From positions 1 to 64,000 of the forward strand of contig JAFPVR010000109.1 of NCBI GenBank assembly GCA_017395245.1: a stretch of 64,000 nucleotides of DNA. Reading direction: 5' to 3'. The DNA is from Bacteroidales bacterium (GTDB lineage: Bacteria; Bacteroidota; Bacteroidia; Bacteroidales; WCHB1-69). A model generated the notes under the pieces. The model saw only the letters and a list, made by a program, of their open reading frames with translations, searched no databases and had not been told where the DNA came from. The translations under genes were made by a program, and so were the position numbers. Positions 8,449-51,805 of this stretch are shown piece after piece (position 1 is the stretch's first letter; the number at the start of each line of letters is the position of its first letter).

Positions 8449-8529
8449 CGCTCGTTATTTTTAGGACAAAAAGATATTATTTGGCCATTGGCTGCTGACC
8501 GTTGGCTGTTATCCATCATACAACAGCTA

Positions 8530-9087
8530 TCATTTCTCAATACGGAAAGATTTGGCAATCTCGTCTTTCTGGAGTGGGGCGATCTTATCAACGTCGCAAA
8601 CGAGAATCACGTAACTCAGTTCACGGCCCCCGTTGAAAGCGAGAACCACAACATTTAAAGGCAATCCGTTAACTTTTGCGACACCCGACACTTCTCTGGC
8701 GTCGTATGACTGGAATGTGGTCTTTTTCATCTTGCTCCACTTAGCATTCTCCAAGGCATCCTTCATGACGATTCTCATAAGATCTTCGAGGTCCTCATCG
8801 GCATAGATATCCATGAAAGCATACGTCCGAAAAGAATCTTCCGCTTGGCTTGTCAGATAAATAGAGGCCGTATTATCCTCCTCGTCTGTTTCCACTTCAA
8901 CTTCCCAGCCGGAAGGTGCGCATATCGACATAGAACCCGCCTTCACCGTTTTGCATTGGGCGTAAAGGCTTGCTGGCGAGGCAAGCACGGACAAAACAAC
9001 GACCATCAACAAAAAGCCGAAGACCTTGATAGCTTGTTCTTTCCATTTAGCAACAAATTGACTTTCAGTATTTTCATAATTCATCAT
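8530..9087 (-). CDS. Exported hypothetical protein
   Basis: A 185-residue protein not assigned to a named family. Residues about 20-43 are a hydrophobic stretch (VFGFLLMVVVLSVLASPASLYAQ) that looks like a signal peptide or a single membrane anchor, with a likely cleavage before CKTVKAGS. The rest is a compact alpha/beta region (MSICAPSGWEVEVETDEEDN ... FNGGRELSYVILVCDVDKIAP) somewhat like PsbP/DcrB-type small periplasmic proteins, but this is only a resemblance in pattern. A second ATG (residue 2) could also be the start. It is divergent from mfd. Confidence 0.6.
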   Translation of the reverse strand: MMNYENTESQFVAKWKEQAIKVFGFLLMVVVLSVLASPASLYAQCKTVKAGSMSICAPSGWEVEVETDEEDNTASIYLTSQAEDSFRTYAFMDIYADEDLEDLMRIVMKDALENAKWSKMKKTTFQSYDAREVSGVAKVNGLPLNVVVLAFNGGRELSYVILVCDVDKIAPLQKDEIAKSFRIEK

Positions 9088-9170
9088 ATTGATATACCCT
9101 CGTTCGTGTCGGGCGCAACTGTTGGTGAATAATCATAAAAAAAAGGTTCTTTCCCCATCACATTTTCAAC

Positions 9171-9201
9171 TTGCAAAAATATGAAATAATTCGTACCTTT
9201 G
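9171..9201 (+). promoter_or_regulatory. Full Bacteroidetes promoter for mfd
   Basis: TTG at 9171-9173 and TACCTTTG at 9194-9201 are separated by 20 bases, which matches both halves (-33 TTG and -7 TAnnTTTG) of the primary sigma factor promoter of this phylum. It lies 14 bases before the mfd start codon. Confidence 0.75.
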
Positions 9202-9215
9202 CAACCTTTTTGACT

Positions 9216-19065: not shown

Positions 19066-19084
19066 ACAAGAAAAACTTGGAATT

Positions 19085-20410
19085 ATGACACATATAGTAA
19101 TAAAGAATGTAGGCCCAATCAAGAACGTGGAGTTCGACTTGAACAAGATCAACGTGTTCATGGGCCCTCAAAGCAGTGGCAAAAGCACCATCGCGAAAAT
19201 TATCAGTTATTGTTCATGGTATGAAAAGAATTACATTCTCTCCGCAAAGCCCCTCAAGAATTTTTATGATGAATTACTGGAGTTCCATAATTTAGAAGAC
19301 GCCTATTTCAGTAATGAATCGTATATTGAATACAACAGCCGGAACTGTCATATAGTATTTTGCGGGAGTGACAAGGGAAACGTAAAAATAGAGGCGACAT
19401 TTGATGCTGATAATGTTTTCAAAAACGAGAAGATCGAATATATTCCTGCTGAAAGGAATATCGTCGCCATTCCTGGCATTGGGGAATATAATAAAGGGCA
19501 TAATAACATATTGGGGTTCCTTTACGAATGGTTTGATGCTAAAAGGGAAAAGAAAAATGCGACAAAATTTGCCCTCCCTTTAAAATCGTTAGGCGATATT
19601 TCTTACTATTACACGCAAGAAGATGATGCCGACCATCTTGTTCTCAGTGATGGAAAGGAAATACGACTTCAACATTCGTCAAGTGGTTTGATTTCCACTA
19701 CACCATTGATTGTCGTTTTTGATCACATTATCAATGGGATTTATTTGAAAAAGAGAATCAAATCCCCGTTTGAAATAGTTAACCTGATTGCAAAATTAGA
19801 TTCCTATGATGACGATGCAAAAAAACGCTTCCAAAATTTGTTGAACAAAATGGGCGAGAACCAAGCTCTCATTAATAATTTGAAAGAAAAAATGGAAAAG
19901 CTGGCAATCAACGGTGATGCAACAACTATGAAAAGTTTAGAGGAGCTGGAGAAAAGCATCAGACATTTACAACGAGATATAAGCAATGAGATGGGAATCG
20001 ATGCAGATTATAACTATTCGAAAGTTATCATTGAGGAACCAGAATCAAATCTTTTCCCAAACACTCAACAAGAATTGGTTTACTATATGTTATCTACCTT
20101 AAATAATTCCTCACGAGAACATCAATTGGTTCTGACAACTCATAGTCCGTACATCCTCTTTTCATTGAACAATTGCATGATGGGTGGCTTAGTAAAGGAC
20201 AACATCCCTGAAGAGGAACAGAAAACATTCGATTCCTGTCAAGCTTGGATTGACCCGAAAAAGGTTTCTATCTATGAAATCCACGAAGGTTCATTGAAAT
20301 CTATTCAGGACGAAGATGGCATCATTGAAGATAACTATCTGAACAAGGCCTACAAAGAGAATTCCGCTGAATATCTTTCACTTCTAAACTACTTTGAAGA
20401 TGAAGAATAG
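19085..20410 (+). CDS. AAA-type/ABC-like P-loop ATPase of the OLD/PtuA kind
   Basis: A 441-residue ATPase starting MTHIVIKNVGPIKNVEFDLN. Walker A is FMGPQSSGKSTIAK (about 24-37), the signature-like IRLQHSSSGLISTTPL is near 200, Walker B is VIIEEPESNLFP (about 315-325) and the switch His is in LVLTTHSPYILFSLNN. Between the two halves is a predicted helical/coiled-coil arm. This is the AAA_15/AAA_21 type found in OLD nucleases, Septu PtuA, Gabija and PARIS AriA. No TOPRIM or nuclease domain is fused; the next gene overlaps by 11 bases and may supply it. An upstream in-frame ATG at 18965 lies in mod and was rejected. It sits between mod and res. Confidence 0.82.
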   Translation: MTHIVIKNVGPIKNVEFDLNKINVFMGPQSSGKSTIAKIISYCSWYEKNYILSAKPLKNFYDELLEFHNLEDAYFSNESYIEYNSRNCHIVFCGSDKGNVKIEATFDADNVFKNEKIEYIPAERNIVAIPGIGEYNKGHNNILGFLYEWFDAKREKKNATKFALPLKSLGDISYYYTQEDDADHLVLSDGKEIRLQHSSSGLISTTPLIVVFDHIINGIYLKKRIKSPFEIVNLIAKLDSYDDDAKKRFQNLLNKMGENQALINNLKEKMEKLAINGDATTMKSLEELEKSIRHLQRDISNEMGIDADYNYSKVIIEEPESNLFPNTQQELVYYMLSTLNNSSREHQLVLTTHSPYILFSLNNCMMGGLVKDNIPEEEQKTFDSCQAWIDPKKVSIYEIHEGSLKSIQDEDGIIEDNYLNKAYKENSAEYLSLLNYFEDEE

Positions 20411-21023
20411 GATTTTGGCGGCATATCCGGATTCGGAGTTTGGAACCACTAATGCCCAGCAAATATTTGTTGCAGACTTCACAGAACGTACTAAAAGTGT
20501 GCGAGGTGTAGAAATACATGAAGTTCTACCCAAAGATCCCAAAGACGAGACTATTGACATGGATTGTTGTGCCATCTCTAATGAAACAAACCTTCAAATT
20601 GACTACAATGTGTTTCGTGATAACCAATTCAAAGACGAAGAGGACGAAGACTTGAAACATGGGGAATGTTGTTTGTTTCCAAATGATAATGATGAGAAGA
20701 CGTGGATTTTATTTATCGAAATCAAAGATTGTAAAGGAAGTAGGATATTTAGGTACAAACAGGATGTAAAAGATAAACTGATACTGAATGTAGGAGAATT
20801 TCGGAGAAAAGGAATTCTGCTAAAGAACAATATCTATGGGGTAACCTCCTTCCCTAGAAAAAAAACAGAATTTAATGAAATGATTGTAACAGATCCTACC
20901 GAGTATAAAACTTTTTACAAAAAGTATGGTATTCATCTGGTTCCTACAAATGAAGTTTCAATAAAAGACAATACAATCATAGAGTTTTATAAAAGAAATG
21001 AACCCAACAGCCAACAATATTAA
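20400..21023 (+). CDS. Putative PD-(D/E)XK-like nuclease partner of the ATPase
   Basis: A 207-residue protein with no family that I recognise. Its start overlaps the ATPase by 11 bases and its end overlaps res by 26, so it is surely translated with them. A beta-strand stretch WILFIEIKDCKGSRIFRYKQ (about residues 100-120) carries the (I/V)E(I/V)K signature of the PD-(D/E)XK fold, followed by a helix (DVKDKLILNVGEF), and an acidic stretch (DEEDEDLKHGE) precedes it. Together with the ATPase this would form an ATPase-effector pair as in other defence modules. An alternative TTG start lies 6 bases upstream. The nuclease call is an inference from one motif. Confidence 0.5.
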   Translation: MKNRILAAYPDSEFGTTNAQQIFVADFTERTKSVRGVEIHEVLPKDPKDETIDMDCCAISNETNLQIDYNVFRDNQFKDEEDEDLKHGECCLFPNDNDEKTWILFIEIKDCKGSRIFRYKQDVKDKLILNVGEFRRKGILLKNNIYGVTSFPRKKTEFNEMIVTDPTEYKTFYKKYGIHLVPTNEVSIKDNTIIEFYKRNEPNSQQY

Positions 21024-23673
21024 GCAGCGCATGTCGCTTCGCGAGCCTTTGGGCAAGGCACTTGACGTGGTCGTGAAACTTACAGAGGAATTATCTTTGC
21101 AGAAACCCGAAACCCAAGAGAAAGGCGATTTCTTAAAAACGGAAATGGCAAAGGTGCAAGAAATCTGCCCCCAGTGCAAAGATTTCGAACGTGATTTTCC
21201 TTCTTTTGCTTTTTCAATAGCTACAGGCATTGGAAAAACAAGGTTGATGGGGGCTTGCATTGCCTATCTGTATCTTAAAAAAGGCATCCGGCATTTCTTC
21301 GTATTGGCACCTAACTTAACACTTTACCAGAAACTAATTCGTGACTTTAATGACACTTCGTATGAGAAGTACGTCTTCAAAGGTATTTCGGAATTTGTTC
21401 ATAATAAACCTGTTGTAATCACAGGAGAGAACTACGACCAAGCTCATTCCTTCTTCTCAGAAAAAGAAGTGCAAATAAATGTGTTCAACATCTCAAAATT
21501 CAATTCAGACAACAAGGATAGTAAACGGGGAGCCCCAAAGATGAAGCGTTTGTCTGAGTATTTGGGTCAATCCTATTTCAATTATTTGGCTAATCTTGAT
21601 GATTTGGTTATATTAATGGATGAGGCACACCGTTATCATGCTGATGCTTCTCGCAATGCCATCAATGAATTGCAGCCCATTTTGGGTTTGGAAATGACAG
21701 CCACTCCATACGATGAAAAAGGCAAGTCATTCAAGAACATTGTGTATGAGTACAATCTGGCTGAAGCGCTGGCAGAAGGCAAATACGTGAAAAATCCGAC
21801 CATCGCCAAACGTAGGAATTTCGAGAAGAAAGATCAAACGCCAGAGGAGTTAGATGTGTTGAAATTGGAGGATGCCATCAGTGTACATGAACATACTAAA
21901 CTGCATCTGGAATTATATGCGAAAGAAAATAATGTCCCACAAGTAAAACCCTTTATTTTAGTAGTTTGCAAGAACATACAACATGCTAACGAAACCGTTG
22001 ATTTGATAGAAAATAAAATCTATGATGGCAAATACAAGGGTAAGGTTTTACAGATTGACAGTTCCACGAAAAAGAACGAAGAAATTGACCAACAGTTTGT
22101 TTCGTTGGAAGACCCGAAGAACCAAATTGAAATTGTAGTTCATGTCAATATGCTGAAAGAAGGTTGGGACGTCACCAATCTCTACACCATTGTACCACTA
22201 CGTGCCGCTGATGCCATAACATTGGTTGAACAGACTATCGGGCGCGGCTTGCGCCTTCCCTATGGAGGCAAACGGACAGGAAATGCCGAAGTTGACAAGT
22301 TAACCGTCATTGCCCATGAGAATTTTGACGAAGTCATTAATAGAGCGAAAGATCCAAATTCATTACTTAACAAACTGAGTTATATCGAATTGGACGACAA
22401 TGATTTGAAACCCATTTCAGGCCAAATTGTCAAAGGAAAGACTTCAATACAGGAAAAACTTGACCAAGAAAGACAAAAAGCGGAAATTGAACTTGACAAA
22501 GCCAAAGCCAAGGCGATTTACGATGCTCGTGTAGCCGTGTGGGATGCCATTCCCAAGATGAACACCGTGGTGAAGAACAAGGAGGAGTTGTCAAAACCTG
22601 AAAACATAGAAAAGCTAAAAGACATTACAGAACGTAGTATCAGGGAAAAAGCAAAGGAATCCAATTCTTTATTTGCTGAAGAGGAAGCGGAAAGTCAAAT
22701 TCGGGAAGTGATGCCGGTAATCAATCTCGTAGTCCAAGATTATATTGACAACATCATAGAGATTCCCCGTGTAGTTGTTGAACAGCCAAAAGCAACCGCC
22801 GTTTTTCATCATTTTGACTTGGACACTTCAGAAGGTTTTTCATTTCCCGAATTAAACAATGAAATTGTCCGTATGGGATTGAAGGACAATGAAGTTGAAG
22901 TACTGACTGCTATCTCAAGTGGATATTTTGATGACCCATTGAAAGAAATTGTTGCCCAGTTGATGAATTTTGAGGAGGTGGATTACGATGAAAACGCCGA
23001 TTTGCTATTTCATTTGGCGGGTCAAGCAATTGAGGCAGTGAGGAAGCAAACGCAAGAAGGGAACGATGTCGCCAACAAAGTGCATCAATTCAAAATGGCG
23101 ATTGCCACCCGGATTTATAACCAAATGAAAGAACATTTCACTTTGGAGAAGAAAGGTTATGCAAGTTCCAAAGTGCTTCCATTTGTGGAATTGTTGCCGC
23201 AACATTTAACAGAAGAAACATCATACGGTTATAGGGATTACCGACTTCCGTTTGCCAACAACCAAAAATCCTTGGTGAAGAAATACATCTTTACAGGTTT
23301 TATGAAATCTTATTATTTGAACTACAAATTTGATAGCTCAACAGAATTGGATTTTGCCTTTTTACTTGAAAACGACGATAATATACTGAAATGGCTCCGT
23401 CCAGTTCCAAACCAGTTCAAAATCTATTGGGGAAATGGAACTCATTTGTATGAACCTGATTTTGTGGTAGAAACAAAAGACAAAATCTACATGATTGAGA
23501 CCAAGGCTGAAAAAGATATGAGCAATGAGGATGTGATAGAGAAGAAAAGGGCAGCAGAGGAGTATTGTCGCGTGGTCTCAAAGGTGACAACAAAACCTTG
23601 GCTATATGTTTTAATACCACATGATGCAGTGATTAAAACGAAACAGTTTGAGTTTATAATCAGTTCCTTATAA
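20998..23673 (+). CDS. res: Type III restriction endonuclease subunit (Res)
   Basis: An 891-residue SF2 helicase-nuclease. Walker A is FSIATGIGKTRLMGACI (ATGIGKT 75-81), the DEAH box is LMDEAHRYH (208-211), motif III is LGLEMTATPYD, and motifs V-VI read NMLKEGWDVTNLYTIVPLRA and VEQTIGRGLRLPYGG. The C-terminus carries a PD-(D/E)XK nuclease: LYEPDFVVETKDKIYMIETKAEKD (Asp about 821, E-x-K about 833). This is the full type III Res layout. It is the last gene of the five-gene operon and overlaps the previous one by 26 bases. Res cuts unmodified DNA together with Mod. Confidence 0.9.
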   Translation: MNPTANNIKQRMSLREPLGKALDVVVKLTEELSLQKPETQEKGDFLKTEMAKVQEICPQCKDFERDFPSFAFSIATGIGKTRLMGACIAYLYLKKGIRHFFVLAPNLTLYQKLIRDFNDTSYEKYVFKGISEFVHNKPVVITGENYDQAHSFFSEKEVQINVFNISKFNSDNKDSKRGAPKMKRLSEYLGQSYFNYLANLDDLVILMDEAHRYHADASRNAINELQPILGLEMTATPYDEKGKSFKNIVYEYNLAEALAEGKYVKNPTIAKRRNFEKKDQTPEELDVLKLEDAISVHEHTKLHLELYAKENNVPQVKPFILVVCKNIQHANETVDLIENKIYDGKYKGKVLQIDSSTKKNEEIDQQFVSLEDPKNQIEIVVHVNMLKEGWDVTNLYTIVPLRAADAITLVEQTIGRGLRLPYGGKRTGNAEVDKLTVIAHENFDEVINRAKDPNSLLNKLSYIELDDNDLKPISGQIVKGKTSIQEKLDQERQKAEIELDKAKAKAIYDARVAVWDAIPKMNTVVKNKEELSKPENIEKLKDITERSIREKAKESNSLFAEEEAESQIREVMPVINLVVQDYIDNIIEIPRVVVEQPKATAVFHHFDLDTSEGFSFPELNNEIVRMGLKDNEVEVLTAISSGYFDDPLKEIVAQLMNFEEVDYDENADLLFHLAGQAIEAVRKQTQEGNDVANKVHQFKMAIATRIYNQMKEHFTLEKKGYASSKVLPFVELLPQHLTEETSYGYRDYRLPFANNQKSLVKKYIFTGFMKSYYLNYKFDSSTELDFAFLLENDDNILKWLRPVPNQFKIYWGNGTHLYEPDFVVETKDKIYMIETKAEKDMSNEDVIEKKRAAEEYCRVVSKVTTKPWLYVLIPHDAVIKTKQFEFIISSL

Positions 23674-42600: not shown

Positions 42601-43479
42601 GACTGCTTCAAAGACATCCACCGGGCACAATACTTCATTGTCAACGACAAGGGCCGCAACACCATCGACATGCTCATCTCCCGTGCCACCTCCAAGGAGA
42701 AGAACGCCGCCCAAATCGATATTTTCGCGGAAATGTCGGAAGAGGATGCTGGGCAAGTGGAGGACACGTTCGTTTTCCCGCAGTGTGACCCGTGGAACTA
42801 CTACGACCAGCTCAAATACGAAAAAGAAGTGGCCGGCTTCTTCATCTCGGGCCATCCGCTCAAGGAGTACCAAGTCATCATCGAAAGCTTTACCAATGCG
42901 GACATGTCCGTGATGGAGGACACCGAATTCCTGTCGCGCGCCGCACAGAGCGGCAAGGGCATCCAGGTGGCCGGCATTGTGAGCAGCGTCATGAGCGGCA
43001 TCAGCAAGACCGGCAACCCTTACGGCAAGGTAGTTTTGGAAGACAACAACGGCACGTGGACGTGGTTCCTGCGCGGCTCCAACTTCCAGAAATTCGAATG
43101 GTTGCTGAAGACCGGCAACCGCGTGTTTGTCAACGCATCCGTGAAGCAGAACAGTTGGAAAGACAAGAACACCCACGAGGACGTGGTACGCTACGACGTG
43201 AACCCCGTGCAAATCTACCCGCTGAACGAAGTGTACGAAAAGCTCTGCAAGGGGGTGCAACTGCAGCTGCAGCTGAGCGACATCACGGCTTCTTTGGCGT
43301 TGAATATCAAGGACATGCTGGAGAAGCACTCCGGCAAGATTCCCTTCAACATCCGCATTTTCGAGCGTGACAAGGTCTTCTACTCCGACTTCTTCAACTT
43401 CGCCGCGAAGGTTGACCCCGAAAGTTTTGTCAGAGATTTCACGTTGCCGGCTGAGTATAAGTTGGTATTGGAAGGGTGA
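39655..43479 (+). CDS. dnaE: DNA polymerase III alpha subunit
   Basis: A 1274-residue replicative polymerase. PHP domain: KFTHLHVHTQYSILDG at the start and NAMAITDHGVMYG. Catalytic palm/fingers: SVGPGRGSAAGSVVAYCL and LPDIDVDFDDEGRYKILDW (three catalytic Asp) and SHATCYSWVAYQTAYLKAH. The C-terminal OB-fold (IQVAGIVSSVMSGISKTGNP) is present and the chain ends at a Pro-rich region. Normal length. It follows the NotI-like gene by 18 bases but is a core gene; no promoter motif was seen directly ahead, so it may depend on the upstream unit or on an unrecognised promoter. Confidence 0.95.
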   Translation: MGKFTHLHVHTQYSILDGMSAIPALIDKCLANGMNAMAITDHGVMYGIKEFSDTVSKKNGKVKDEIKDLEKKLPELTDEAEIAECQAKIDALKQKIFKPIFGCEAYVARKTKTNPEGSRLVHEHKENGSGYHLVVLAKNEIGYHNLCKIISLGWIDGKYYRPRIDRSLLEQYHEGLIVSSACLAGEVPRNITNGDYEKAKEAALWFKSIFGDDYYLEIQRHKTDKPGGDRTVYEQQKVANEGILRLAAETGIKVIATNDVHFVNEEDGEAHDRLICLSTGKKFDDTDRMHYTKQEWLKTPEEMEAIFADVPEALANTQEIVDKVEVYQLKHAPIMPMFEIPEEFGTVESYKQKFSEEDLRAEFESDEGGKGRIEKLGGLERVYRIKLEADYLHKLTMEGAVQRYGDPVDPEILERIEFELGVMRNMGFPGYFLIVQDFIAAARAMGVSVGPGRGSAAGSVVAYCLKITDVDPLKYDLLFERFLNPDRISLPDIDVDFDDEGRYKILDWITQKYGKEKVAHIITYGTMATKSSLKDVARVHDLPIPESDRLTKMIPVKFPEDPKTHKAPKVNIQSCLDNVPEFKAAYDSSPRIHDIIHYASQLEGTVRQVGIHACGVIIGADDLTKFAPLSTVEDKEAKEDIIVTQYEGSVIEDVGLIKMDFLGLSTLTILKEAISNIKKSKGIDVDIDHIPLDDPETYKLYCDGDTVGTFQFESGGMQKYLRELQPSTFEDLIAMNALYRPGPMDYIPQFIDRKQGREKIEYDIPVMEKYLKDTYGITVYQEQVMLLSRLLANFTRGESDTLRKAMGKKLKDKLDALKPKFIEGGKANGHEEKTLQKIWADWEKFASYAFNKSHATCYSWVAYQTAYLKAHYRAEYMAANLTNSVTDIKKITTYIEDCQKSGITVKGPDINESDETFTVNKDGDIRFGLAALKGVGFSAASSIVNERNAHGPYTSIMDFFERVNLASCNKRCLESLAYAGAFDCFKDIHRAQYFIVNDKGRNTIDMLISRATSKEKNAAQIDIFAEMSEEDAGQVEDTFVFPQCDPWNYYDQLKYEKEVAGFFISGHPLKEYQVIIESFTNADMSVMEDTEFLSRAAQSGKGIQVAGIVSSVMSGISKTGNPYGKVVLEDNNGTWTWFLRGSNFQKFEWLLKTGNRVFVNASVKQNSWKDKNTHEDVVRYDVNPVQIYPLNEVYEKLCKGVQLQLQLSDITASLALNIKDMLEKHSGKIPFNIRIFERDKVFYSDFFNFAAKVDPESFVRDFTLPAEYKLVLEG

Positions 43480-44035
43480 GTTTCGTCAGTCCGCCTTTGT
43501 TGCCCATCACGAACAGTTCCGTGTTGCCGTCGTTGGTTATCAGCTCCACATACAGCGGCTGGTTTTTCGTGAAACGCTGGCAGAGAAAACGGTCGCCGGG
43601 CTTTAGTTTGGCGTTTTCAGACGTAACCACCTCAAACAGACTGTTGCCTAAATATTTGAGTTTGCAGCGGCGGTTGGGATTCCATGCGATTTCCACTTGG
43701 TTATCGACATCCAAATCCTTGGTATAAAGCGATTTCGAGACCACGCGGTGCGATGACTGCACGCTTTCCACCTCGCAGTAGTCCGATACAAAGGTCTCCC
43801 AGTCGGGAAAGCCTACAAAGCGAGCGAGGATGTCGAGGGTGCTGGGGCGCACGGAAGCATAGCCTTCCACGTACCCCCAAAGCCGCTTCAGCGTGGATGC
43901 GCTGAGGGTCTCCTTCAGCCGTCCCTGGATTTCGCCCGACAGGAAGATGAAGTCGTTGGAGGTGGTCACCGTGTGGTTGGCCGACTCTTCCACGAGTTGG
44001 CGCATCAAAGTGATATGTTGCGGATTCACAGGCAT
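43439..44035 (-). CDS. Conserved Bacteroidetes protein with HTH-like segment
   Basis: A 198-residue soluble protein. The N-terminal part (about 12-75, SASTLKRLWGYVEGYASVRP and LDILARFVGFPDWETFVSDY) is typical of a family widespread in Bacteroidetes in which this segment looks helix-turn-helix-like; the C-terminal part (about 95-198) is a beta-rich domain (GDRFLCQRFTKNQPLYVELI). ATG at 44035 is used because a promoter TATTTTTG lies at 44057-44064. The longer frame to 44137 would run through it. Its end overlaps dnaE, tail to tail, by 41 bases. It shares the AGAACC operator with two other transcription units, so it may be part of one regulon or the regulator itself. Confidence 0.65.
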   Translation of the reverse strand: MPVNPQHITLMRQLVEESANHTVTTSNDFIFLSGEIQGRLKETLSASTLKRLWGYVEGYASVRPSTLDILARFVGFPDWETFVSDYCEVESVQSSHRVVSKSLYTKDLDVDNQVEIAWNPNRRCKLKYLGNSLFEVVTSENAKLKPGDRFLCQRFTKNQPLYVELITNDGNTELFVMGNKGGLTKLTLPIPTYTQPAT

Positions 44036-44056
44036 GGTTCTCAAAATTTGCAGCCG

Positions 44057-44064
44057 CAAAAATA
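44057..44064 (-). promoter_or_regulatory. TAnnTTTG promoter element for the 43439-44035 gene
   Basis: The minus strand reads TATTTTTG, 21 bases upstream of the chosen start codon. Confidence 0.6.
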
Positions 44065-44088
44065 GCAAACATTCGGATATAACGAACC

Positions 44089-44105
44089 GGTTCTTTTTCG
44101 GTTCT
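44089..44105 (-). promoter_or_regulatory. Operator candidate AGAACC-N5-AGAACC, copy 1
   Basis: On the minus strand the 17 bases read AGAACC-GAAAA-AGAACC. It is a direct hexamer repeat with an 11-base period. The inner hexamer ends 24 bases before the TAnnTTTG element of the 43439-44035 gene, replacing the -33 element. Two identical-in-layout copies occur at 45981 and 46220. Confidence 0.55.
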
Positions 44106-44122
44106 TTTCTGCAATCGCCGTT

Positions 44123-44150
44123 GTAGAGACGTGCCATGGCGCGTCTCTAC
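44123..44150. repeat. 28-base palindrome, copy A
   Basis: GTAGAGACG ... CGTCTCTAC with the centre GCCATGGC; one mismatched pair in an otherwise perfect inverted repeat. Confidence 0.8.
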
Positions 44151-44167
44151 TTTTATCGTTCGCCATT

Positions 44168-44195
44168 GTAGAGACGTTGCGCGCAACGTCTCTAC
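44168..44195. repeat. 28-base perfect palindrome, copy B
   Basis: GTAGAGACG ... CGTCTCTAC with the centre TTGCGCGCAA; perfectly self-complementary over 28 bases. It shares its nine outer bases on each side with copy A and could act as a bidirectional terminator or protein-binding site between the divergent genes. Confidence 0.85.
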
Positions 44196-44225
44196 CTTTG
44201 ACGTTCACCAACCGCCAAAAAATAT

Positions 44226-44233
44226 TATTTTTG
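44226..44233 (+). promoter_or_regulatory. TAnnTTTG promoter element for kinase
   Basis: TATTTTTG is only 5 bases ahead of the ATG at 44238, so the transcript would be leaderless or nearly so if this start is right. Confidence 0.5.
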
Positions 44234-44237
44234 CCGC

Positions 44238-45728
44238 ATGATTGAAAATCCCGACGACATTTCCACCTCCGGGTTCGTCCCATCCTCCGAATACGCCGTT
44301 TCAGGTCGGTTTTCGGGGCACAGCGAACTTCCTTCGCGAGGCTATTGCCGGCTGTTCAAAGCGCAGCGAAACGGTCAATGGTTCGTGCTGAAAGCGTTGA
44401 AGCCGGAGTGCCAACAAGACCTTGTCTATCAGGGAATGCTCGAAAAAGAGTACGACCTGATGATGCAGCTCAACCACCCGAACATCGTGCGCATATACAG
44501 CAAAGAGGAGGAACCGGTGGCGGGCGTATGCATGGTGATGGAGTATGTGGATGGCCGCACGTTGGGTGACTTTCTAGAGGAAAACCCTCCACAGAATGTC
44601 AGAGAATCGGTGACGCGTCAGATTCTGGAGGCCATCGGTTACTGTCACGGCAAGCAAATCATCCATCGCGACCTCAAACCCTCCAACATTTTGGTCACGT
44701 TTAACGGCAACAGTGTCAAGCTGATTGACTTCGGATTGTCGGACAGCGACCGTTACGCCGTATTGAAGGAGCCCGCCTACACCAAGGCTTACGCCGCGCC
44801 GGAGCAGCTGTCGGGAGCGGAAGTCGATAACCGCACCGACCTCTACGCTTTCGGACTGATTCTGAAGCAGTTGTTCCCGAATCGCTACGGGCGCGTGGTC
44901 CGCAAATGTCTGCAACCGAAGAAAGAGAACCGGTATTCGTCGGCGGAGGAGGTGATGAGGGCGATGGAAAGTTGCGCAAAAAGGAGAAAGGTGATGCCGT
45001 GGAGGATTGTTATAACGGTCGCTGCTGTCGTGTTGTCCGTTTTATTGTTTTTTCTTTATATGAACCGCGAAACTACTGTCCCTTTGCAACCATCGACGGA
45101 ATTGCCATCTTCAGTCCGAGACACCGTTTTTCTTGCGTCACCGTCCCAGACGCATAGTCAAAAAGATACACCATTGCCTGCACACGAAGAAGAAAGTGAC
45201 CAATCGTATGTTATTGAGAAACCGTTGACGACCGTATCAAGCTCTGTGGACCCGCAGGCTGTGGTGGCGCGGCAACAACGCAACGACTCCATTCTGAACA
45301 CTATAAAACAGGGAGAAAATCATGAACAAGAAGCGCTCGAAAATGCGATTTATAACTTCAAATTCACCATTGACAGTATGTTCAAGCCGGTGGATTTGTA
45401 TGTAAAAAGCGATGAGGTAAAAACCTCTAACATTCTGCGTGATCTGATTTACATTGCCGAATACAGGTCTAAGATTCGCGAATGCCAGATTCGAAGTCAG
45501 TTGCCGAAATCCAAGCGGAATAGTTTCTTCAACTACGCCAACGACCAAATCGAGGCGAAGAAAAGATCATACACACAAAAATATCCTGCCATAATCAAAT
45601 ATCCCAATGAGCAGCAGGTTAGGGAACCTGAAAAATACCAGCTGATCTGGGAGCAGAGCCAAAAATATCAGCAAGAGGGACAAAAGTTATATCTGGAGTG
45701 GAAAAGGCTGATGAGCTCAATTCATTAA
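44238..45728 (+). CDS. Membrane-anchored Ser/Thr protein kinase
   Basis: A 496-residue Hanks-type kinase. The kinase domain (about 22-250) shows the ATP-anchoring Lys in GQWFVLKALKPE, catalytic loop YCHGKQIIHRDLKPSNILV (about 137-155), DFG (LIDFGLSD) and APE (YAAPEQLSG). A single membrane helix follows (about 256-276, RIVITVAAVVLSVLLFFLYM), then an extracytoplasmic Ser/Thr-rich linker and a helical C-terminal region (QSQKYQQEGQKLYLEWKRLM). Glycine-loop residues are reduced (SGHSELPSRG). No substrate is obvious; the helical exterior could be a sensor. Monocistronic. Confidence 0.88.
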   Translation: MIENPDDISTSGFVPSSEYAVSGRFSGHSELPSRGYCRLFKAQRNGQWFVLKALKPECQQDLVYQGMLEKEYDLMMQLNHPNIVRIYSKEEEPVAGVCMVMEYVDGRTLGDFLEENPPQNVRESVTRQILEAIGYCHGKQIIHRDLKPSNILVTFNGNSVKLIDFGLSDSDRYAVLKEPAYTKAYAAPEQLSGAEVDNRTDLYAFGLILKQLFPNRYGRVVRKCLQPKKENRYSSAEEVMRAMESCAKRRKVMPWRIVITVAAVVLSVLLFFLYMNRETTVPLQPSTELPSSVRDTVFLASPSQTHSQKDTPLPAHEEESDQSYVIEKPLTTVSSSVDPQAVVARQQRNDSILNTIKQGENHEQEALENAIYNFKFTIDSMFKPVDLYVKSDEVKTSNILRDLIYIAEYRSKIRECQIRSQLPKSKRNSFFNYANDQIEAKKRSYTQKYPAIIKYPNEQQVREPEKYQLIWEQSQKYQQEGQKLYLEWKRLMSSIH

Positions 45729-46039: not shown

Positions 46040-46041
46040 CA

Positions 46042-46183
46042 GTTCGAAACCTGGAAAATTTCAAATGCAATGCCAAGAGGAAGCCGAAGATGCTTGCGGT
46101 TTATAGCCGTGAGCTTTCTTTGTTTGGCATTGCAGGTTTTTCCAGGACCTCGAACTCGAAACAATGAAGTTCGCGGTTTTTTT
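46042..46183 (+). ncRNA. Candidate structured small RNA (6S-like rod)
   Basis: The region folds by eye into a rod. GTTCGA (46042-46047) pairs with TCGAAC (46150-46155). CCTGGAAAA (46050-46058) pairs with TTTTCCAGG (46138-46146). GCAATGCCAA (46067-46076) pairs perfectly with TTGGCATTGC (46124-46133), and GGAAGC with GCTTTC closes the inner part, ending in CGG ... CCG near the tip. A promoter precedes it and a terminator-like hairpin with seven T residues ends it (46151-46183). No frame inside is convincing: the 82-codon frame here is broken up by the pairing arms. The shape and size recall 6S RNA or the 6S-Flavo RNA of Bacteroidetes, but an unrelated RNA or a cis-acting leader is equally possible. 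Confidence 0.5.
46151..46183 (+). terminator. Intrinsic terminator of the structured RNA
   Basis: CGAACT (46151-46156) pairs with AGTTCG (46168-46173) around an 11-base loop, followed by CGG and seven T residues (46177-46183). CGAAC is also the partner of the RNA's first six bases, so the terminator stem and the outermost rod stem exclude each other. Confidence 0.55.
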
Positions 46184-46259: not shown

Positions 46260-46267
46260 TACTTTTG
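46260..46267 (+). promoter_or_regulatory. TAnnTTTG promoter element for RiPP-like operon
   Basis: TACTTTTG matches the Bacteroidetes -7 consensus, 56 bases before the first gene of the cluster (46323). No later promoter octamer was seen before the maturase, so one transcript may cover the whole set. Confidence 0.6.
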
Positions 46268-46322
46268 CGGTGTGGAAAAAAGTGAAAGAGATTAAGAGTA
46301 AAAAACATAGTCCATTAATAAA

Positions 46323-46610
46323 ATGAAAAAGATGATACGGTTAGATTTAGACAGGCGTTCTCCTGTGATGGAAATTATAAACATGAGTGAGAATGATGTC
46401 TCGCGCCTTATTTTAGCATTAAAGTTTTGTAATGAAATGTGTAAAGACACGAACCTTGACATCTATACAGAACAGGAAAAAGAAGCAATTCTAAAAAAAA
46501 TGTTGGAGTTGCAAACACTTCTCGAAGATGAATACGGCAAGTGTTCTTCAAAAACAGCGGTTGGTATAGAAGAAGAAATTATAACCAAAGTTGCTTTATA
46601 CTGGAAATAA
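46323..46610 (+). CDS. Small unknown protein heading the RiPP-like cluster
   Basis: A 95-residue protein, no family recognised. It is predicted to be mostly helical (SENDVSRLILALKFCNEMCK; EQEKEAILKKMLELQTLLED), without a signal peptide or membrane helix. It has a start context AATAAAATGAAAAAG and follows the shared operator/promoter. It ends 64 bases before the first precursor. It could be a regulator, a precursor-binding factor, an immunity protein or an unrelated gene; the sequence does not decide. Confidence 0.6.
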   Translation: MKKMIRLDLDRRSPVMEIINMSENDVSRLILALKFCNEMCKDTNLDIYTEQEKEAILKKMLELQTLLEDEYGKCSSKTAVGIEEEIITKVALYWK

Positions 46611-46674
46611 TAAAAAAACGAGAAAGCCGATTCGCGTGAAAGGAGGTAGGCAATAATTTTAAGATTCAAGTACT

Positions 46675-46797
46675 ATGAAAAAGTATCAAAAAGTACAGCG
46701 TCTGGCCTCAAGTGGCACTGCGAATTTCGCCAACTGTCATGGAGATGAACAGACTCAAAGTTATTGTGGTTCAAAATTAAACTACAAAGCTTTCTAA
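46675..46797 (+). CDS. RiPP-like precursor peptide 1
   Basis: A 40-residue peptide, too short for standard ORF listings. It begins MKKYQKVQRLASSGTANFAN, continues with Cys21-His-Gly-Asp, a variable stretch, Cys31-Gly, and ends NYKAF. An AAAGGAGG ribosome-binding site is 27 bases ahead and a conserved leader (GTAGGC ... ATTTTAAG ... TACTATG) precedes it. Two more copies follow in tandem, then an RRE-radical SAM gene. The constant N-terminal half would be the recognition leader and the variable, two-Cys C-terminal half the modified core; this is an inference from the layout. Confidence 0.75.
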   Translation: MKKYQKVQRLASSGTANFANCHGDEQTQSYCGSKLNYKAF

Positions 46798-46858
46798 CAA
46801 AAAGGAAGAAGCCGAAAATCCTTGAAGAGTAGGCACAAATTTAAAACCTTAAAGTACT

Positions 46859-46981
46859 ATGAAAAAGTATCAAAAAGTTCAACGTTTGGCCTCAAGTGGC
46901 ACTGCAAGTTTTGCGAACTGCCATGGGGATGAATCTGCTCCAAGCAAATGCGGCTCTATTTTTGAGTACAGAGCACGATAA
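46859..46981 (+). CDS. RiPP-like precursor peptide 2
   Basis: A 40-residue peptide with the same first 16 residues (MKKYQKVQRLASSGTA), then SFANC-HGD, a variable core and Cys31-Gly, ending EYRAR. Its leader reads GAAGCCGAAAATCCTTGAAGAGTAGGC, nearly the same as the one before copy 3 and before the fourth, IS-disrupted ORF. Compared with copy 1 the constant half is nearly identical in DNA, while the core differs in 9 or more residues between the two Cys. Confidence 0.75.
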   Translation: MKKYQKVQRLASSGTASFANCHGDESAPSKCGSIFEYRAR

Positions 46982-47044
46982 TTCAGGAATAGGAAGAAGC
47001 CGAAAATCCTTAAAGAGTAGGCGTAATTTTAAATTTCAAATACT

Positions 47045-47164
47045 ATGAAAAAGTATCAAAAAGTTCAACGTTTGGCCTCAAGCGGTACCGCAAATTTTGC
47101 CGCATGCAATGGGGATTATCCTCGAAATTACTGTGGTCCTGTGGCAAACTACAAGGCTCGATAG
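47045..47164 (+). CDS. RiPP-like precursor peptide 3
   Basis: A 39-residue peptide with the same 16-residue N-terminus, then NFAAC-NGD, a one-residue shorter core, Cys30-Gly and an NYKAR end. Both Cys, the following Gly, the Gly-Asp pair after the first Cys and the (N/E)Y(K/R)A ending are kept in all three copies, so these are likely the functional points. A strong hairpin at 47175-47207 separates it from the maturase. Confidence 0.75.
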   Translation: MKKYQKVQRLASSGTANFAACNGDYPRNYCGPVANYKAR

Positions 47165-47174
47165 TATTTTTCAA

Positions 47175-47207
47175 AAAGACTGGTGATAAAAAACATCACC
47201 AGTCTTT
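47175..47207 (+). terminator. Attenuator/terminator between precursors and maturase
   Basis: AAAGACTGGTGAT (47175-47187) and ATCACCAGTCTTT (47195-47207) form a perfect 13-bp stem with a 7-base loop, followed by an AT-rich tail with few consecutive T residues. It would end or weaken part of the transcripts after the precursors and so favour peptide over enzyme. Confidence 0.7.
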
Positions 47208-47237
47208 ATTAAAACAAACATCTTAACTGAATTAAAC

Positions 47238-48689
47238 ATGTTAGTTTGTCAATCCAAAAACACGTTCATCAGGAACCATGGTGATTATGTATACATAATC
47301 AACCAGTTTACGAATTCCGATCTTGTACTAAATGAGGCGGGGGCGGATTTCCTCAAAGAAATCAGTAGAGTTCCCCAAGACACAGAAAAAATTATAGATC
47401 GACTTCTAAATCTTTATGGCAGTTCTGTTGACAAGGCAGAATTGCAAGAAGACTTCGAATGTTTCTGTTCGGAATTATCAGAGCAACATTATTTAGTACT
47501 TGGTGAGAATGAAGATGAAATAAAAAAGAAAGATTTAGACTTCAACTATGAACTTTTGAATCTCCAGCAGCCATCAAATGTATTAAGTATTGGAAATGAG
47601 CAAAAAGAAAGAAACACCTCTGATTTTTGGATTTCACGCGCCAACGCAGGAGATTATCAACTAAACGACATTCAATTTGAGTTAACGAGTTCTTGCAATG
47701 AGCGATGCATTCACTGTTACATTCCCAATGCAAGAAAAAATGTTGGCCAAGATATGGATTATAAAGATTTCTGTTCTGTGATTGACCAATTTGTTGATAT
47801 GGGCGGGATTCATGTCGGGCTTAGTGGAGGTGAATGCCTGACTCATAAAAACATTCTTAAAATCATTGAATATTGTCGGAAAAAAGACCTTATAATTACC
47901 ATTCTCAGTAATCTTATCGTCTTACAGGATGAACACATCCCTTTCCTGAAACAAGCAAACATTGCACACATACAGACTTCTCTCTATAGTATGGACGAAG
48001 CCATACACGATAAGATCACAACGATAAAAGGCTCTTGGAGAAAAACCAAAAGTGCAATTGAGAAATTAGTGGCGGCAAATATTCCTGTTCAAATATCCTG
48101 CCCATTGATGAATGCAAACAAAGACAGTTTTGTAGATGTTCTCAAATATGCCGAATCTCTTCATACTATAGCAACAACTGACTATATGATTATGGCAGAG
48201 GCTAATTTTGGTAAAGATAATCTTGCCCACAGGCTATCAATTTGTGATGTTGAACACGCAATGCGTTCTGTTATGGAATACAATCTTAAAAAAGGAAAAA
48301 ACGTCACGTACTCCCCATCGTCAAATATCACAAGCATTAGTGAAAGTATAGAAAAACAACCCGTATGTGGAGCCGCAATAAGTAGTATTTGTGTTTTATC
48401 TTCAGGCGATGTCTGTGCATGCCCAGGATGGAACGACTTGGCTTGCGGCAATATTCACAAACAACCATTGAAAGACATTTGGGAAAACTCGGAGCAGTTA
48501 AAGAGAATCCGAAAAATCACTAAAGGAGACTTCCCTCTTTGTCTGGAATGTGAGGCGGATGACTATTGCACTTTCTGTCTTGAGCGAAACTATAATGAAA
48601 GCGGTGGCGATATGTTCAAGATAAACAAGCATTTCTGCAATGTGGCATTCGCCAATAAGAAAGTGGTGAAAGAATATTTAACAAAATAA
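47238..48689 (+). CDS. RRE-radical SAM-SPASM peptide maturase
   Basis: A 483-residue enzyme. Residues about 1-90 form a PqqD-like recognition element (FIRNHGDYVYIINQFTNSDL, then acidic helices) that would bind a precursor leader. The radical SAM core begins with QFELTSSCNERCIHCYIPNA, the CxxxCxxC cluster ligands being Cys153, Cys157 and Cys160, then VDMGGIHVGLSGGECLTHKN. The C-terminal third is Cys-rich (from Cys377: CGAAISSICVLSSGDVCACP, then PLCLECEADDYCTFC and a final Cys), matching a SPASM/auxiliary iron-sulphur domain. Such enzymes make thioether or C-C cross-links in ribosomal peptides. It lies right after three Cys-containing precursors. No peptidase or exporter is next to it. Its exact subfamily and reaction are not known to me. 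Confidence 0.88.
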   Translation: MLVCQSKNTFIRNHGDYVYIINQFTNSDLVLNEAGADFLKEISRVPQDTEKIIDRLLNLYGSSVDKAELQEDFECFCSELSEQHYLVLGENEDEIKKKDLDFNYELLNLQQPSNVLSIGNEQKERNTSDFWISRANAGDYQLNDIQFELTSSCNERCIHCYIPNARKNVGQDMDYKDFCSVIDQFVDMGGIHVGLSGGECLTHKNILKIIEYCRKKDLIITILSNLIVLQDEHIPFLKQANIAHIQTSLYSMDEAIHDKITTIKGSWRKTKSAIEKLVAANIPVQISCPLMNANKDSFVDVLKYAESLHTIATTDYMIMAEANFGKDNLAHRLSICDVEHAMRSVMEYNLKKGKNVTYSPSSNITSISESIEKQPVCGAAISSICVLSSGDVCACPGWNDLACGNIHKQPLKDIWENSEQLKRIRKITKGDFPLCLECEADDYCTFCLERNYNESGGDMFKINKHFCNVAFANKKVVKEYLTK

Positions 48690-48978
48690 CAACTGGATTT
48701 TATTATGGTTATAACGGAAATTAGCGAATACCATAACAGTGTTCTTAGAACTATCTATTGAGCAATAAGGAGGAAGCCGAAAATCCTGCAAAAGAATAGG
48801 CGAAAATTTTAAAACATTAAAAATATGCATATAATTTAGTGTCCCCCTTTCTTTGGACAGTTTTTCTTCGTTCTTAATATAACTACTTTTCAGGGAAGAG
48901 GCCGCCGGGGCAGCCCCTTCGGGTTGAAAAGTCGATTTGTTATTTTCCGTTCGGCAAAAATACATTTTTTCTCATTGC

Positions 48979-49983
48979 TCACGACACTTTCGTGTAAACC
49001 TCGTCAGGAGTCCGGTAATCAAGACTTTGGTGCAACCTTTTAGTGTTGTAGATGCGGATGTAGTTGTCGATTCCGTGCCACAACTCCACTCCGTCCTCGT
49101 AAGCGTTCAGATAGATGTCATCGTATTTTATGCTGCGCCAGAACCGCTCGATGTAGATGTCGTCAGTCGCCCGTCCGCGTCCGTCCATGCTGATCTTAAG
49201 TTTCGGATTATCAAAATCTTCGCCGACCAATGTCGTGATGAACACCTCGCTGGTGAACTGGCTTCCTTGATCGGTGTTGAAGATTTCCGGTCTGCCGTAG
49301 CGCAGGAAAGCATCCATGGCGATTTCCGCGCACCACTCCGCCTCCATCGTGTTGCTCAGTCCCCAGCCCATGATGCGACGGCTGAACACGTCAATGATGG
49401 CCGCGAGGTACATAAAACCGTGACGCATAGGGATGTAGGTGATGTCCATCTCCCATACCTGGTTCGGACGGACGATGTCGAGTCCGCGCAGCAGATACGG
49501 GTACTTCTTGTGTTCAGGTGCCGCAACGGTTGTCTTGGGCTTCGGGCACATGGCTTCGATGCCCATCAGTTTCATCAGACGTTGCACACGCTTCTCGCCG
49601 ACCCCGTAACCGCGACGTTGAAGTTCGGCCATTATCCGCCGCACCCCGTAATACGGGTAATCTAAATGAATCTCGTCCATTATCCTCATAATCATAAGGT
49701 TAAACTCGCTCTCGCCCACCGGCTTGTAGTAGAAACTCGACCGTGACAAGCCCAGCAGTATGCATTGCTGCAACACGCTGAGCCCCGTGTGATCCGGCTC
49801 CACCATCCGCTTGCGCTCACCGACGGAGGTGTGCTCGGTCACAACTTTTTTTTTAGGAAGTCCACCATCATGTCCAGCTGGCCTATCCTGGCGTGCAGCT
49901 CGTGGATCTCCTTCTCCTTCGACAGGTCGGGTGACTCCTTGGTGAACACCAGCGCAGCCTTCGCCAAAAACTCCTTCTTCCAC
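48979..49983 (-). CDS. IS3-family transposase OrfB (DDE integrase core)
   Basis: A 334-codon frame; the real product is the fused OrfAB made by a -1 frameshift, so the first about 45 codons are probably not used as such. The rve integrase domain has the DDE triad: Asp in QVWEMDITYIPM, Asp in IFNTDQGSQFTSE and Glu in IYIERFWRSIKYDD. HTH_21-type segment DYPYYGVRRIMAELQRRGYG precedes it. The slippery run of nine A (minus strand; T at 49846-49854) just before the orfA stop codon is the expected frameshift site of this IS family. Confidence 0.9.
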   Translation of the reverse strand: MEEGVFGEGCAGVHQGVTRPVEGEGDPRAARQDRPAGHDGGLPKKKVVTEHTSVGERKRMVEPDHTGLSVLQQCILLGLSRSSFYYKPVGESEFNLMIMRIMDEIHLDYPYYGVRRIMAELQRRGYGVGEKRVQRLMKLMGIEAMCPKPKTTVAAPEHKKYPYLLRGLDIVRPNQVWEMDITYIPMRHGFMYLAAIIDVFSRRIMGWGLSNTMEAEWCAEIAMDAFLRYGRPEIFNTDQGSQFTSEVFITTLVGEDFDNPKLKISMDGRGRATDDIYIERFWRSIKYDDIYLNAYEDGVELWHGIDNYIRIYNTKRLHQSLDYRTPDEVYTKVS

Positions 49984-50108
49984 TCGCTTATCTGCTTGGG
50001 TGTCAGTTCATACTCTTTTGACAACTCGTTCAAGGTCTTCTGACCCTTGATGGCTTCTAACGCCACTTTCGCCTTAAATTCAGGCGAGAATTTTCTTTTT
50101 CCTTTCAT
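49839..50108 (-). CDS. IS3-family transposase OrfA (HTH)
   Basis: An 89-residue helix-turn-helix protein (FSPEFKAKVALEAIKGQKTL and LSKEYELTPKQISEWKKEFL) followed by a leucine-zipper-like C-terminus ending DFLKKKL. It is the first part of the transposase; translation slips by -1 on the A9 run right before its stop codon and continues into OrfB. Confidence 0.9.
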   Translation of the reverse strand: MKGKRKFSPEFKAKVALEAIKGQKTLNELSKEYELTPKQISEWKKEFLAKAALVFTKESPDLSKEKEIHELHARIGQLDMMVDFLKKKL

Positions 50109-50321
50109 ACAGCAAAATTATACTTTTTTTGGTTTAACTTGCTGTCCGAAATTTGGGGGGCATTATATGCGCTTGGAATGATGGAAAATCAAACTACAAA
50201 GAAACGTTTTATGAGTATGAGTTGTCTGATTGCAAAAGCGCTTATGATGCAATTCCAGAAGTTTTGAACAAGTATTGATTTGACAGATCACAATGGCGCC
50301 TAATTATTCAATCTTTTTCCT

Positions 50322-51098: not shown

Positions 51099-51224
51099 AT
51101 GAACCAAACATTTTACCGCTTCCTGCATATCCATGAACAGTATCATCGTATGAAATATGAGACAACGAGAAGAGTCTATGACACGTTAAATACCCTACTA
51201 TGTCCGAAAAGAAATGGAAGATAG
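51099..51224 (+). CDS. Very small ORF of doubtful status
   Basis: A 41-codon frame starting MNQTFYRFLHIHEQYHRMKY, 11 bases after the previous gene, overlapping the next ORF by 25 bases. Rich in aromatic and basic residues. No homologue is recognised; it could be a short peptide of the block or chance. Confidence 0.25.
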   Translation: MNQTFYRFLHIHEQYHRMKYETTRRVYDTLNTLLCPKRNGR

Positions 51225-51499
51225 ACAGTCGTGTACCACACAAATATCGTGGTGGTCGTAGAGGGAAAGGCTCGGAATTTCCTCGTCGTGGCATGAATGA
51301 ATACGAAGGCGAGCGGCTCTCCATGGGCAAACATCAGTTCTCGAAACACAAAACAATGAGCTACAACAAAAGTTATGGATGGGCTTCATTGCATATAAAA
51401 TACTTGGATGGACTCCTCAACAAATACGTCAACAGACCGTTTGATGTATGGCTCTGGAGTTTTATACAAAAAAGTAGCCTACTAACGACCAAACAATAG
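51200..51499 (+). CDS. Small basic hypothetical protein
   Basis: A 99-residue very basic protein (KYRGGRRGKGSEFPRRGMNE), family not recognised. The N-terminal half has a nucleic-acid-binding-like composition; the C-terminal half has Trp/Tyr-rich helices (LNKYVNRPFDVWLWSFIQKS). No Shine-Dalgarno-like site is evident at 51200. Confidence 0.4.
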   Translation: MSEKKWKIDSRVPHKYRGGRRGKGSEFPRRGMNEYEGERLSMGKHQFSKHKTMSYNKSYGWASLHIKYLDGLLNKYVNRPFDVWLWSFIQKSSLLTTKQ

Positions 51500-51526: not shown

Positions 51527-51805
51527 ATGTACCGCAAATTCACCGCATCCCGCGTTTCCGAATCCAACGTGCTGTTCCCGCCCACTATCATCTTCACCGA
51601 TGAGGGCATTACCATCAAAACGCCGGCGCTGCTGCATCACAACACCGACTTCATCCCCTACGAGGCGGTGTCCAGCGTGATGATACACACCCCGATCGCC
51701 GGCTTCTCCACCATCACCTTCTACGCCTACGGGCGCGAGATTCGCGTCCACGGCTTCCTCCAGCGCGAGGTGTGGGAGATGAAGCGGCTGGTGGAGGAGC
51801 GGTAA
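51527..51805 (+). CDS. Small hypothetical protein, PH-like
   Basis: A 92-residue beta-rich protein with a final helix (FLQREVWEMKRLVEER). The pattern of strands (NVLFPPTIIFTDEGITIKTP; AVSSVMIHTPIAGFSTITFY) resembles a bacterial PH-type domain, without certainty. GC-rich codon use returns here, so it is on the core side of the accessory block. Confidence 0.5.
   Translation: MYRKFTASRVSESNVLFPPTIIFTDEGITIKTPALLHHNTDFIPYEAVSSVMIHTPIAGFSTITFYAYGREIRVHGFLQREVWEMKRLVEER

Follow-up and report, generated by a model that had tools for sequence, protein, structure and literature searches.

A predicted radical SAM-modified peptide system of an unnamed family in a Bacteroidales genome, with relatives on plasmids and phages

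Introduction

Three short open reading frames (ORFs) followed by a single enzyme gene on the plus strand of a Bacteroidales contig raise the question of whether this bacterium produces a ribosomally synthesized and post-translationally modified peptide (RiPP) that belongs to no named family. The locus lies in JAFPVR010000109.1 (GenBank assembly GCA_017395245.1), positions 1 to 64,000 of which are referred to here as the window; this is contig 97 in a genome of 3.78 Mb and 129 contigs. The original prediction for this locus considered the small ORFs to be RiPP precursors and the enzyme to be their maturase, combining a RiPP recognition element (RRE) with radical S-adenosylmethionine (SAM) and SPASM domains, and the Pfam domains of the enzyme and the coding peptides linked to it agree with this. 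The locus probably specifies a RiPP system of an unnamed family in which the leader is bound by the RRE, the Cys-bearing half is changed by radical SAM chemistry, and the genes travel as a compact mobile cassette.

Precursor peptides

The three window peptides are identical over residues 1–16, MKKYQKVQRLASSGTA, and differ in sequence thereafter. Each possesses Cys21 and a second Cys at position 30 or 31, the latter followed by Gly, and ends in (N/E)Y(K/R)A(F/R). Their description as near-identical holds for the first 16 residues but not for the whole peptides, which are 65–77% identical. None matches a Pfam or NCBIfam model, in agreement with the view that the leader belongs to no recognized family in the libraries searched, and the predicted lack of a double-glycine (GG) cleavage site is seen in all three. 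The stretch encoding the peptides and the enzyme is AT-rich, with a GC content of 0.375 compared with a window mean of 0.503. The cluster had been drawn as starting at position 46323, which is too far upstream; the 95-residue ORF found there is without an equivalent in any of 10 related loci (best E 0.18) and is therefore placed outside the system.

Codon comparison with the related loci L019, L021, and L020 reveals that the peptides evolve as coding sequence, as had been anticipated. Peptide 1 differs by 8 synonymous and 0 non-synonymous changes from its L019 counterpart, by 11 and 0 from that of L021, and by 8 and 3 from that of L020; for peptide 3 the respective counts are 1 and 0, 15 and 7, and 13 and 2. 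Between peptides 1 and 2 of the window there are 4 synonymous and 0 non-synonymous changes in the first 16 codons, and 11 and 15 in the remainder. The leader is therefore held constant and the paralogues diverge in their second half, with each peptide well conserved across genomes. The variable core that had been proposed is thus a property of the paralogues, but not of a given peptide followed from genome to genome. Peptide 2 is present only in the window's cluster among the four clusters of its subfamily (group 1, below).

Maturase

The enzyme matches the Pfam models PqqD (the RRE; residues 30–85; 23.6 bits against a cut-off of 23.4), Radical_SAM (residues 148–304; 75.7 bits), and SPASM (residues 377–438; 37.6 bits). 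For the related enzyme of locus L027 the PqqD score is 30.4 bits. The protein carries a CNERCIHC motif and a C-terminal region with eight Cys. Alignment of 16 homologues reveals invariant Cys at positions 153, 157, 160, 377, 385, 395, 435, 438, 444, 447, and 467, a pattern that would be expected of one radical SAM cluster and two auxiliary clusters.

A PqqD-like RRE fused to radical SAM and SPASM domains, with a linked coding precursor, is the arrangement of the RRE-dependent radical SAM RiPPs. The ranthipeptide and sactipeptide maturases CteB, PapB, SkfB, AlbA, and StsB share it, each with a small Cys-bearing precursor adjoining, but the leader here is different and the enzyme is only 14–20% identical to CteB and SkfB in structural alignments. 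In sactipeptides the sulfur of Cys is joined to an alpha carbon, in ranthipeptides to a beta or gamma carbon. The best structural match to the maturase model is the thioether enzyme CteB, and the nearest sequence match among solved structures is SkfB. A first structure model, built from nine close sequences, reached a predicted local distance difference test (pLDDT) score of 56.6 and was kept out of the fold search. The window enzyme falls below the cut-off for each of the best 25 of 53 NCBIfam families. None of the curated maturase models is reached and the scores are far under their cut-offs, namely 84.9 versus 850 for AlbA, 64 versus 625 for StsB, 54.9 versus 300 for SkfB and, in the list for the L027 relative only, 58.9 versus 340 for PapB. 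The enzyme was also considered as a prokaryotic viperin (pVip). This was rejected: the match (E 1.4e-14) spans only the shared barrel (residues 145–296), and the viperin domain has no RRE and no SPASM, both of which are present here.

Subfamilies and pairing of enzyme and peptide

Related genomes yielded three subfamilies, with G095 bridging the groups. Group 1, the window type, includes L019–L021 (enzymes 87–89% identical), and group 2 comprises L022–L027 (enzyme identity 52–54%), with precursors that read roughly MKxYKKVExxAKNAPxGSYAAGCP...CxxCE. G095 (L035) has an enzyme identity of 44% and the peptide MKKYQKPKVVAKNNPQGSYAAGCP... Group 3, at 32–35% identity to the window enzyme, consists of L036–L040, L068, a set of plasmids, and L083 and L084. 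Its precursors are near MxYxKPxxLAQSTxxMAECRPNSKPSGRPCNPPxPGGR, and their cores are closely similar across plasmid and phage hosts, around CRPNSKPSGRPCNPP. The invariant columns in 17 precursors are M1, Y4, A11, A19, C21, and C31; the precursors found carry two to four Cys.

Such a peptide is present at all 26 enzyme loci with readable flanks (17 from Bacteroidota, 7 plasmids, and 2 IMG/VR records), as expected if homologues of the enzyme always neighbor such peptides. L028, where the enzyme is cut by the contig end, stands outside the 26. L019, L020, L021, and L025, which occupy the same contig positions as G005, G028, G008, and G009, were counted once; L085, L090, and L091 are one phage ORF, and the enzymes in CP099011, CP058084, CP057902, and CP057912 are identical. 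Of 393 genomes drawn from the window's order, only G221, G235, G244, G341, and G414 have the group-3 precursor; they are the same five that have a group-3 enzyme (E ≤ 1e-50), and the 388 others are without the precursor (Fisher p 1.3e-11). A Fisher test at genus level presupposed a peptide in G009, where the peptide search of the genus gave none, and was set aside. A profile search of the phylum matched 2 of 395 genomes, one of which was new (G588). A regular expression for the peptide motif, written after the peptides were seen and missing the true precursors of L026 and L083, picked out 31 of the 3,003 candidate ATG starts across 472 kb of partly overlapping loci. All of these lie at an enzyme locus or at the phage orphan described below, and 20 rounds of codon-block shuffling gave 0 in 65,453. 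The predicted pairing of enzyme and substrate is well supported by this co-occurrence and by the codon changes that show coding.

Plasmids, phages, and mobility

Group-3 precursor and maturase genes are carried by conjugative plasmids of E. coli (five records), Salmonella (one), and Photobacterium (one); the four enterobacterial plasmid records opened are IncF-type by typing. In L079 the E. coli plasmid precursor lies at 7788–7904 and its enzyme at 7980–9416. The E. coli and Photobacterium precursors are identical proteins whose genes differ by 17 synonymous changes, and the enzymes are 77% identical. A comparison of three enterobacterial plasmids shows serine-recombinase sequence on the upstream side of the cassette and, on the downstream side, a second copy that is partial and diverged (79–83% over 311 bp); no second copy was found in the Photobacterium plasmid. 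No annotated feature lies under the precursor in any of the seven plasmid records (the PLSDB gene table being incomplete), and such systems may therefore be overlooked. The L083 cassette sits amid Mu-like phage genes (GemA, both terminase subunits, an Rz-like spanin, and a transglycosylase), and that of L084 amid three tyrosine-recombinase genes. Cassette GC content, compared with that of its locus, is 0.307 versus 0.443, 0.313 versus 0.390, and 0.372 versus 0.620. In the phylogenetic tree G244, G221, G341, and G588 form a group with L083 that leaves out G235 (support 96/89).

In the window's genus what is apparently one chromosomal place holds group 1 (L019), group 2 (L025), or other cargo (G024), and the downstream DNA of L019 and L025 is 94% identical. 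The cassette here looks as if it moves by swapping at a single locus.

A 94-kb phage contig (L085 = G818) carries a lone precursor, MIYTKPKILAQSTVQMAECRPNSRPSGRPCNPPKPGGV (L085 351–467), not far from a DNA polymerase gene. This precursor matches that of the Bacteroidota locus L036 at 36 of 38 residues. A profile search of the whole contig, the record of which may be incomplete, found no maturase. Its sole radical SAM match is weak and different, about 17 kb from the precursor; this is a 290-residue protein (L092 1883–2755).

Scanning IMG/VR with the window enzyme alone gave no relative, a pattern for the group-2 peptide gave none, and a second group-3 pattern gave the phage orphan again and nothing else. 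Of the 23 records that the window enzyme matched in a phage collection, none extends over 80% of the query; the plasmid enzyme from E. coli gave no match there at 1e-20. The 4-kb plasmid region matched 2,772 records of E. coli complete genomes, none covering 80%, and the matches listed are insertion-sequence, recombinase, or other small pieces. Precursor plus enzyme had no match in 20,395 E. coli complete-genome records; the five E. coli plasmid records from elsewhere have both.

Proposed mechanism and role of the product

We propose that the ribosome would make the peptides and that the PqqD-like RRE at the N-terminus of the enzyme would bind the N-terminal half of each, around Tyr4 to Ala11. 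The radical SAM center, aided by the SPASM iron–sulfur clusters, would then modify the Cys-bearing half, most likely by linking the sulfur of one conserved Cys, or of both. The core pair of precursor and maturase would move between hosts as a compact cassette, by apparent one-locus swapping in the window's genus and on conjugative plasmids and phages in the sister subgroup. Thioether formation by the maturase is plausible. The two Cys had been put forward as thioether acceptors; this has to be turned around, for in thioether RiPPs Cys is the donor, according to the available part of PMC8326336.

Several points weigh against this proposal. The window leader departs from the leader motif seen in most of group 3, with Val in place of Pro and Arg in place of a hydrophobic residue. 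Few residues are invariant across the three subfamilies, and the chemistry might therefore differ between them. The whole group-3 branch has a support of 85/99 (not starred) in a tree with two very long-branched outgroup rows. No window-type (group-1) cluster was found on a plasmid or phage, the window enzyme having drawn no relative from IMG/VR, and mobility of group 1 is thus argued from the locus comparison and the low GC content. An exported antagonist or signal would agree as well with a cluster of three peptides whose cores differ, and genes for exporters and peptidases may lie at other places in the genome. The contig with the lone precursor may be incomplete. Finally, the modified peptide itself is a prediction.

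That the maturase makes some other change, a carbon–carbon link, an epimerization, or a cyclopropane, with the Cys assisting or needed only later, is somewhat unlikely: two Cys are among the few invariant columns of the 17 precursors, the core has no conserved aromatic residue, and CteB, the best structural match, is a thioether enzyme.

With respect to function, we tentatively favor a product that acts inside the producing cell rather than as an exported bacteriocin, short of calling it probable. We rank this role first for two reasons: genes for an exporter, a leader peptidase, or immunity were not seen with the cassette, and a phage contig bears a lone precursor. The original prediction had likewise noted no linked exporter or peptidase, and none, nor any immunity gene, is present among the neighbors read or scanned (19 profile-scanned Bacteroidota proteins; PLSDB gene tables, which are incomplete). 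A CPBP-family protease is annotated in L082, more than 6 kb away.

An exported bacteriocin or signal, leaving through host exporters once cleaved by a housekeeping protease and acting on neighboring cells, we regard as unlikely. It would explain why one cluster has several paralogues whose cores differ and why genomes of the genus carry different alleles at one locus (L025 versus L019), and antibacterial sactipeptides are known (available part of PMC6231123). The neighbors just described hold no exporter, protease, or immunity gene, however, and the conservation is unlike that of an arms race: the protein sequence of peptide 1 is the same in two further species-level genomes, and E. coli and Photobacterium share one precursor sequence although their enzymes differ.

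It is decidedly speculative, and in our estimation improbable, that the cassette is carried for use in conflicts of mobile elements with their hosts. Plasmids and prophages would bring in both genes to make a modified peptide that stays in the cell and shields it, or the element itself, from phages for instance; the lone phage precursor would then be a decoy occupying the host maturase, or a borrower of it.

Very doubtful is a cofactor-like or metal-binding product, in which the peptide would become a small redox or metal-binding compound, processed in relatives by an amidohydrolase. The group-3 core is conserved across phyla, and an amidohydrolase gene (PF04909) lies near 9 of the 12 enzymes of groups 1 and 2 and G095 (L019, L022–L028, and L035; in L026 the contig end cuts it). 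A homologue (E 1.8e-18) is found on a Thiodictyon plasmid beside PqqD-radical SAM, second radical SAM, and YcaO genes. Against this, the window, L020, and L021 have no amidohydrolase near the enzyme, the window's genome gave no match when searched (an empty answer that is little proof by itself), and six Bacteroidota group-3 loci searched have none; the subfamily cores are strongly different, and no linked cofactor-using enzyme was noticed. The amidohydrolase is not common to the whole family; strains that have it may use it to trim or otherwise change the peptide.

That the small ORFs are untranslated repeats, for instance around a structured RNA, and that the enzyme acts on something else is scarcely credible and largely refuted: a conserved RNA element does precede ORFs 2 and 3 within the repeats, but codon-level selection, enzyme–peptide co-occurrence, and conservation of the peptide in L036 and L037, where the element is lacking, contradict it.

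Relationship to known systems

Lasso peptide leaders carry YxxPx(L/V/I), according to the available part of PMC13381572, a motif that is present in most group-3 leaders. By comparison, the window leader reads YQKVQR, with Val at the Pro position and Arg at the hydrophobic one, and fails even YxxPx[L/V/I/F/A]; no lasso cyclase or B2 peptidase occurs among the neighbors read. The GG-leader RiPPs of Bacteroidales, the same order as the window, are associated with peptidase-containing ATP-binding cassette (ABC) transporters, and radical SAM clusters are their most frequent kind (available part of PMC10352776); here there is no GG site and no such transporter was seen.

No description of the peptides or the cassette was found in the open-licence literature, including the available parts of PMC10352776, PMC8326336, PMC7470986, and PMC13381572, though an earlier one, for example in a radical SAM atlas, is possible; the peptide motifs gave nothing relevant in the literature searched. 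The enzyme architecture is familiar, and what is apparently new is the peptide family, its carriage by mobile elements in different phyla while the core stays closely similar, and the occurrence of a precursor by itself in a phage. As RiPPs go, a pair of genes that modifies a peptide and is passed between phyla by plasmids and phages in this way would be unusual. The cassette is small enough for expression as a whole in E. coli, on whose plasmids it already resides, and makes it possible to ask directly whether radical SAM RiPPs are of use to mobile elements.

Table 1. Coordinates of the features in the window and the basis for each.
Feature	Position	Strand	Basis
TAnnTTTGC motif, candidate operon promoter	46260..46268	+	Position only
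Precursor peptide 1, 40 aa	46675..46797	+	ORF; same protein in L019 and L021
DUF805b RNA (RF02914), 5′ region of peptide 2	46802..46835	+	40.6 bits (gathering score 35.6)
Precursor peptide 2, 40 aa	46859..46981	+	ORF
DUF805b RNA, 5′ region of peptide 3	46990..47023	+	41.2 bits
Precursor peptide 3, 39 aa	47045..47164	+	ORF; codon comparison with relatives
Stem-loop between peptide 3 and enzyme, candidate terminator or attenuator	47175..47207	+	Spacer folds at −18.6 kcal/mol
Radical SAM maturase, 483 aa	47238..48689	+	Pfam domains, invariant Cys, structure model
DUF805b RNA ahead of the interrupted DUF2158-type gene 3′ of the enzyme	48767..48802	+	43.9 bits
Insertion sequence (IS) element, IS3-like by eye	48835..50164	−	Comparison with L020 9585–9956

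Neighboring genes

The IS element replaces about 248 bp of a DUF2158-type gene that comes after the maturase in relatives; it interrupts the operon but is no part of the system. The two further subfamilies, carriage on plasmids and phages, the DUF805b RNA, the amidohydrolase near many relatives, and this IS element go beyond the original prediction.

Upstream of the cluster, in the window (43439–45728) and in L019–L023, is a protein kinase gene with a neighbor that has no clear Pfam match. The kinase was recognized through PF00069 in the window, L022, and L023, and by eye in L019–L021. A 310-residue gene of L019, L020, L021, and L025 is shortened in the window (51200–51499); the L019 protein has no Pfam match. 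The 3′-end of a 92-residue gene (about 85–185 bp; window 51719–51804) is repeated downstream in L019, L020, L025, L070, L071, and L072, several of the copies coming after an inserted gene such as one for an AAA-type ATPase, which looks like serial integration at the gene end. A low-GC stretch of the window (17398–23673) holds what by eye resembles a type III restriction-modification system whose Mod and Res genes are separated by two others, one of them for an AAA-type ATPase.

The Thiodictyon plasmid, pTs417 (L094 2629–7002), has its PqqD-radical SAM, second radical SAM, amidohydrolase, and YcaO genes in consecutive order. A Macrococcoides plasmid (L093 1436–5512) contains a PqqD gene, two radical SAM genes flanking a 40-residue hypothetical peptide, and an ABC transporter.

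RNA elements and expression signals

The DUF805b RNA takes its name from another gene context. At or above the gathering score, this 35-nt element begins 55–57 nt before the start codon in 11 of 17 precursors (groups 1 and 2 and G095); none was present at L036 or L037, the two group-3 loci scanned. The window's genome has at least four above the cut-off, three of them here, with 150 of 1,855 first-look candidates scored, whereas 0 of 14 control genomes have one, seven showing weaker matches. Counterparts of the copy downstream of the enzyme are found in L019 (5256–5291) and L020 (9527–9562). The repeat at 48765 was considered as the marker of a fourth peptide and rejected, as it precedes the DUF2158-type gene cut by the IS element. 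Within the same genus and genome DUF805b also stands ahead of other genes (L069 2154–2190 and 2719–2754; L074 1501–1537), and it is therefore not specific to RiPP genes. No link between it and peptide genes was found in the literature searched.

A stem-loop is present in all eight precursor–enzyme spacers folded, those of the window, E. coli, Photobacterium, L022 (first 120 nt only), L035, L037, L038, and L068, the folding being without a shuffle control. Such a structure could let the substrate outnumber the enzyme.

TAnnTTTGC, which we take to be a Bacteroidetes promoter consensus, occurs 27 times in the window against 8.1 expected, a number reached in 0 of 100 shuffles; this excess would fit a promoter element. 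Immediately after another copy, at 46032, is a 131-nt hairpin (46040–46170; −55.1 kcal/mol, z −7.2), which has no Rfam match at E ≤ 1. Close copies of it are found in L019, L020, L021, L025 (two), and L071, and five diverged copies elsewhere in the genome.

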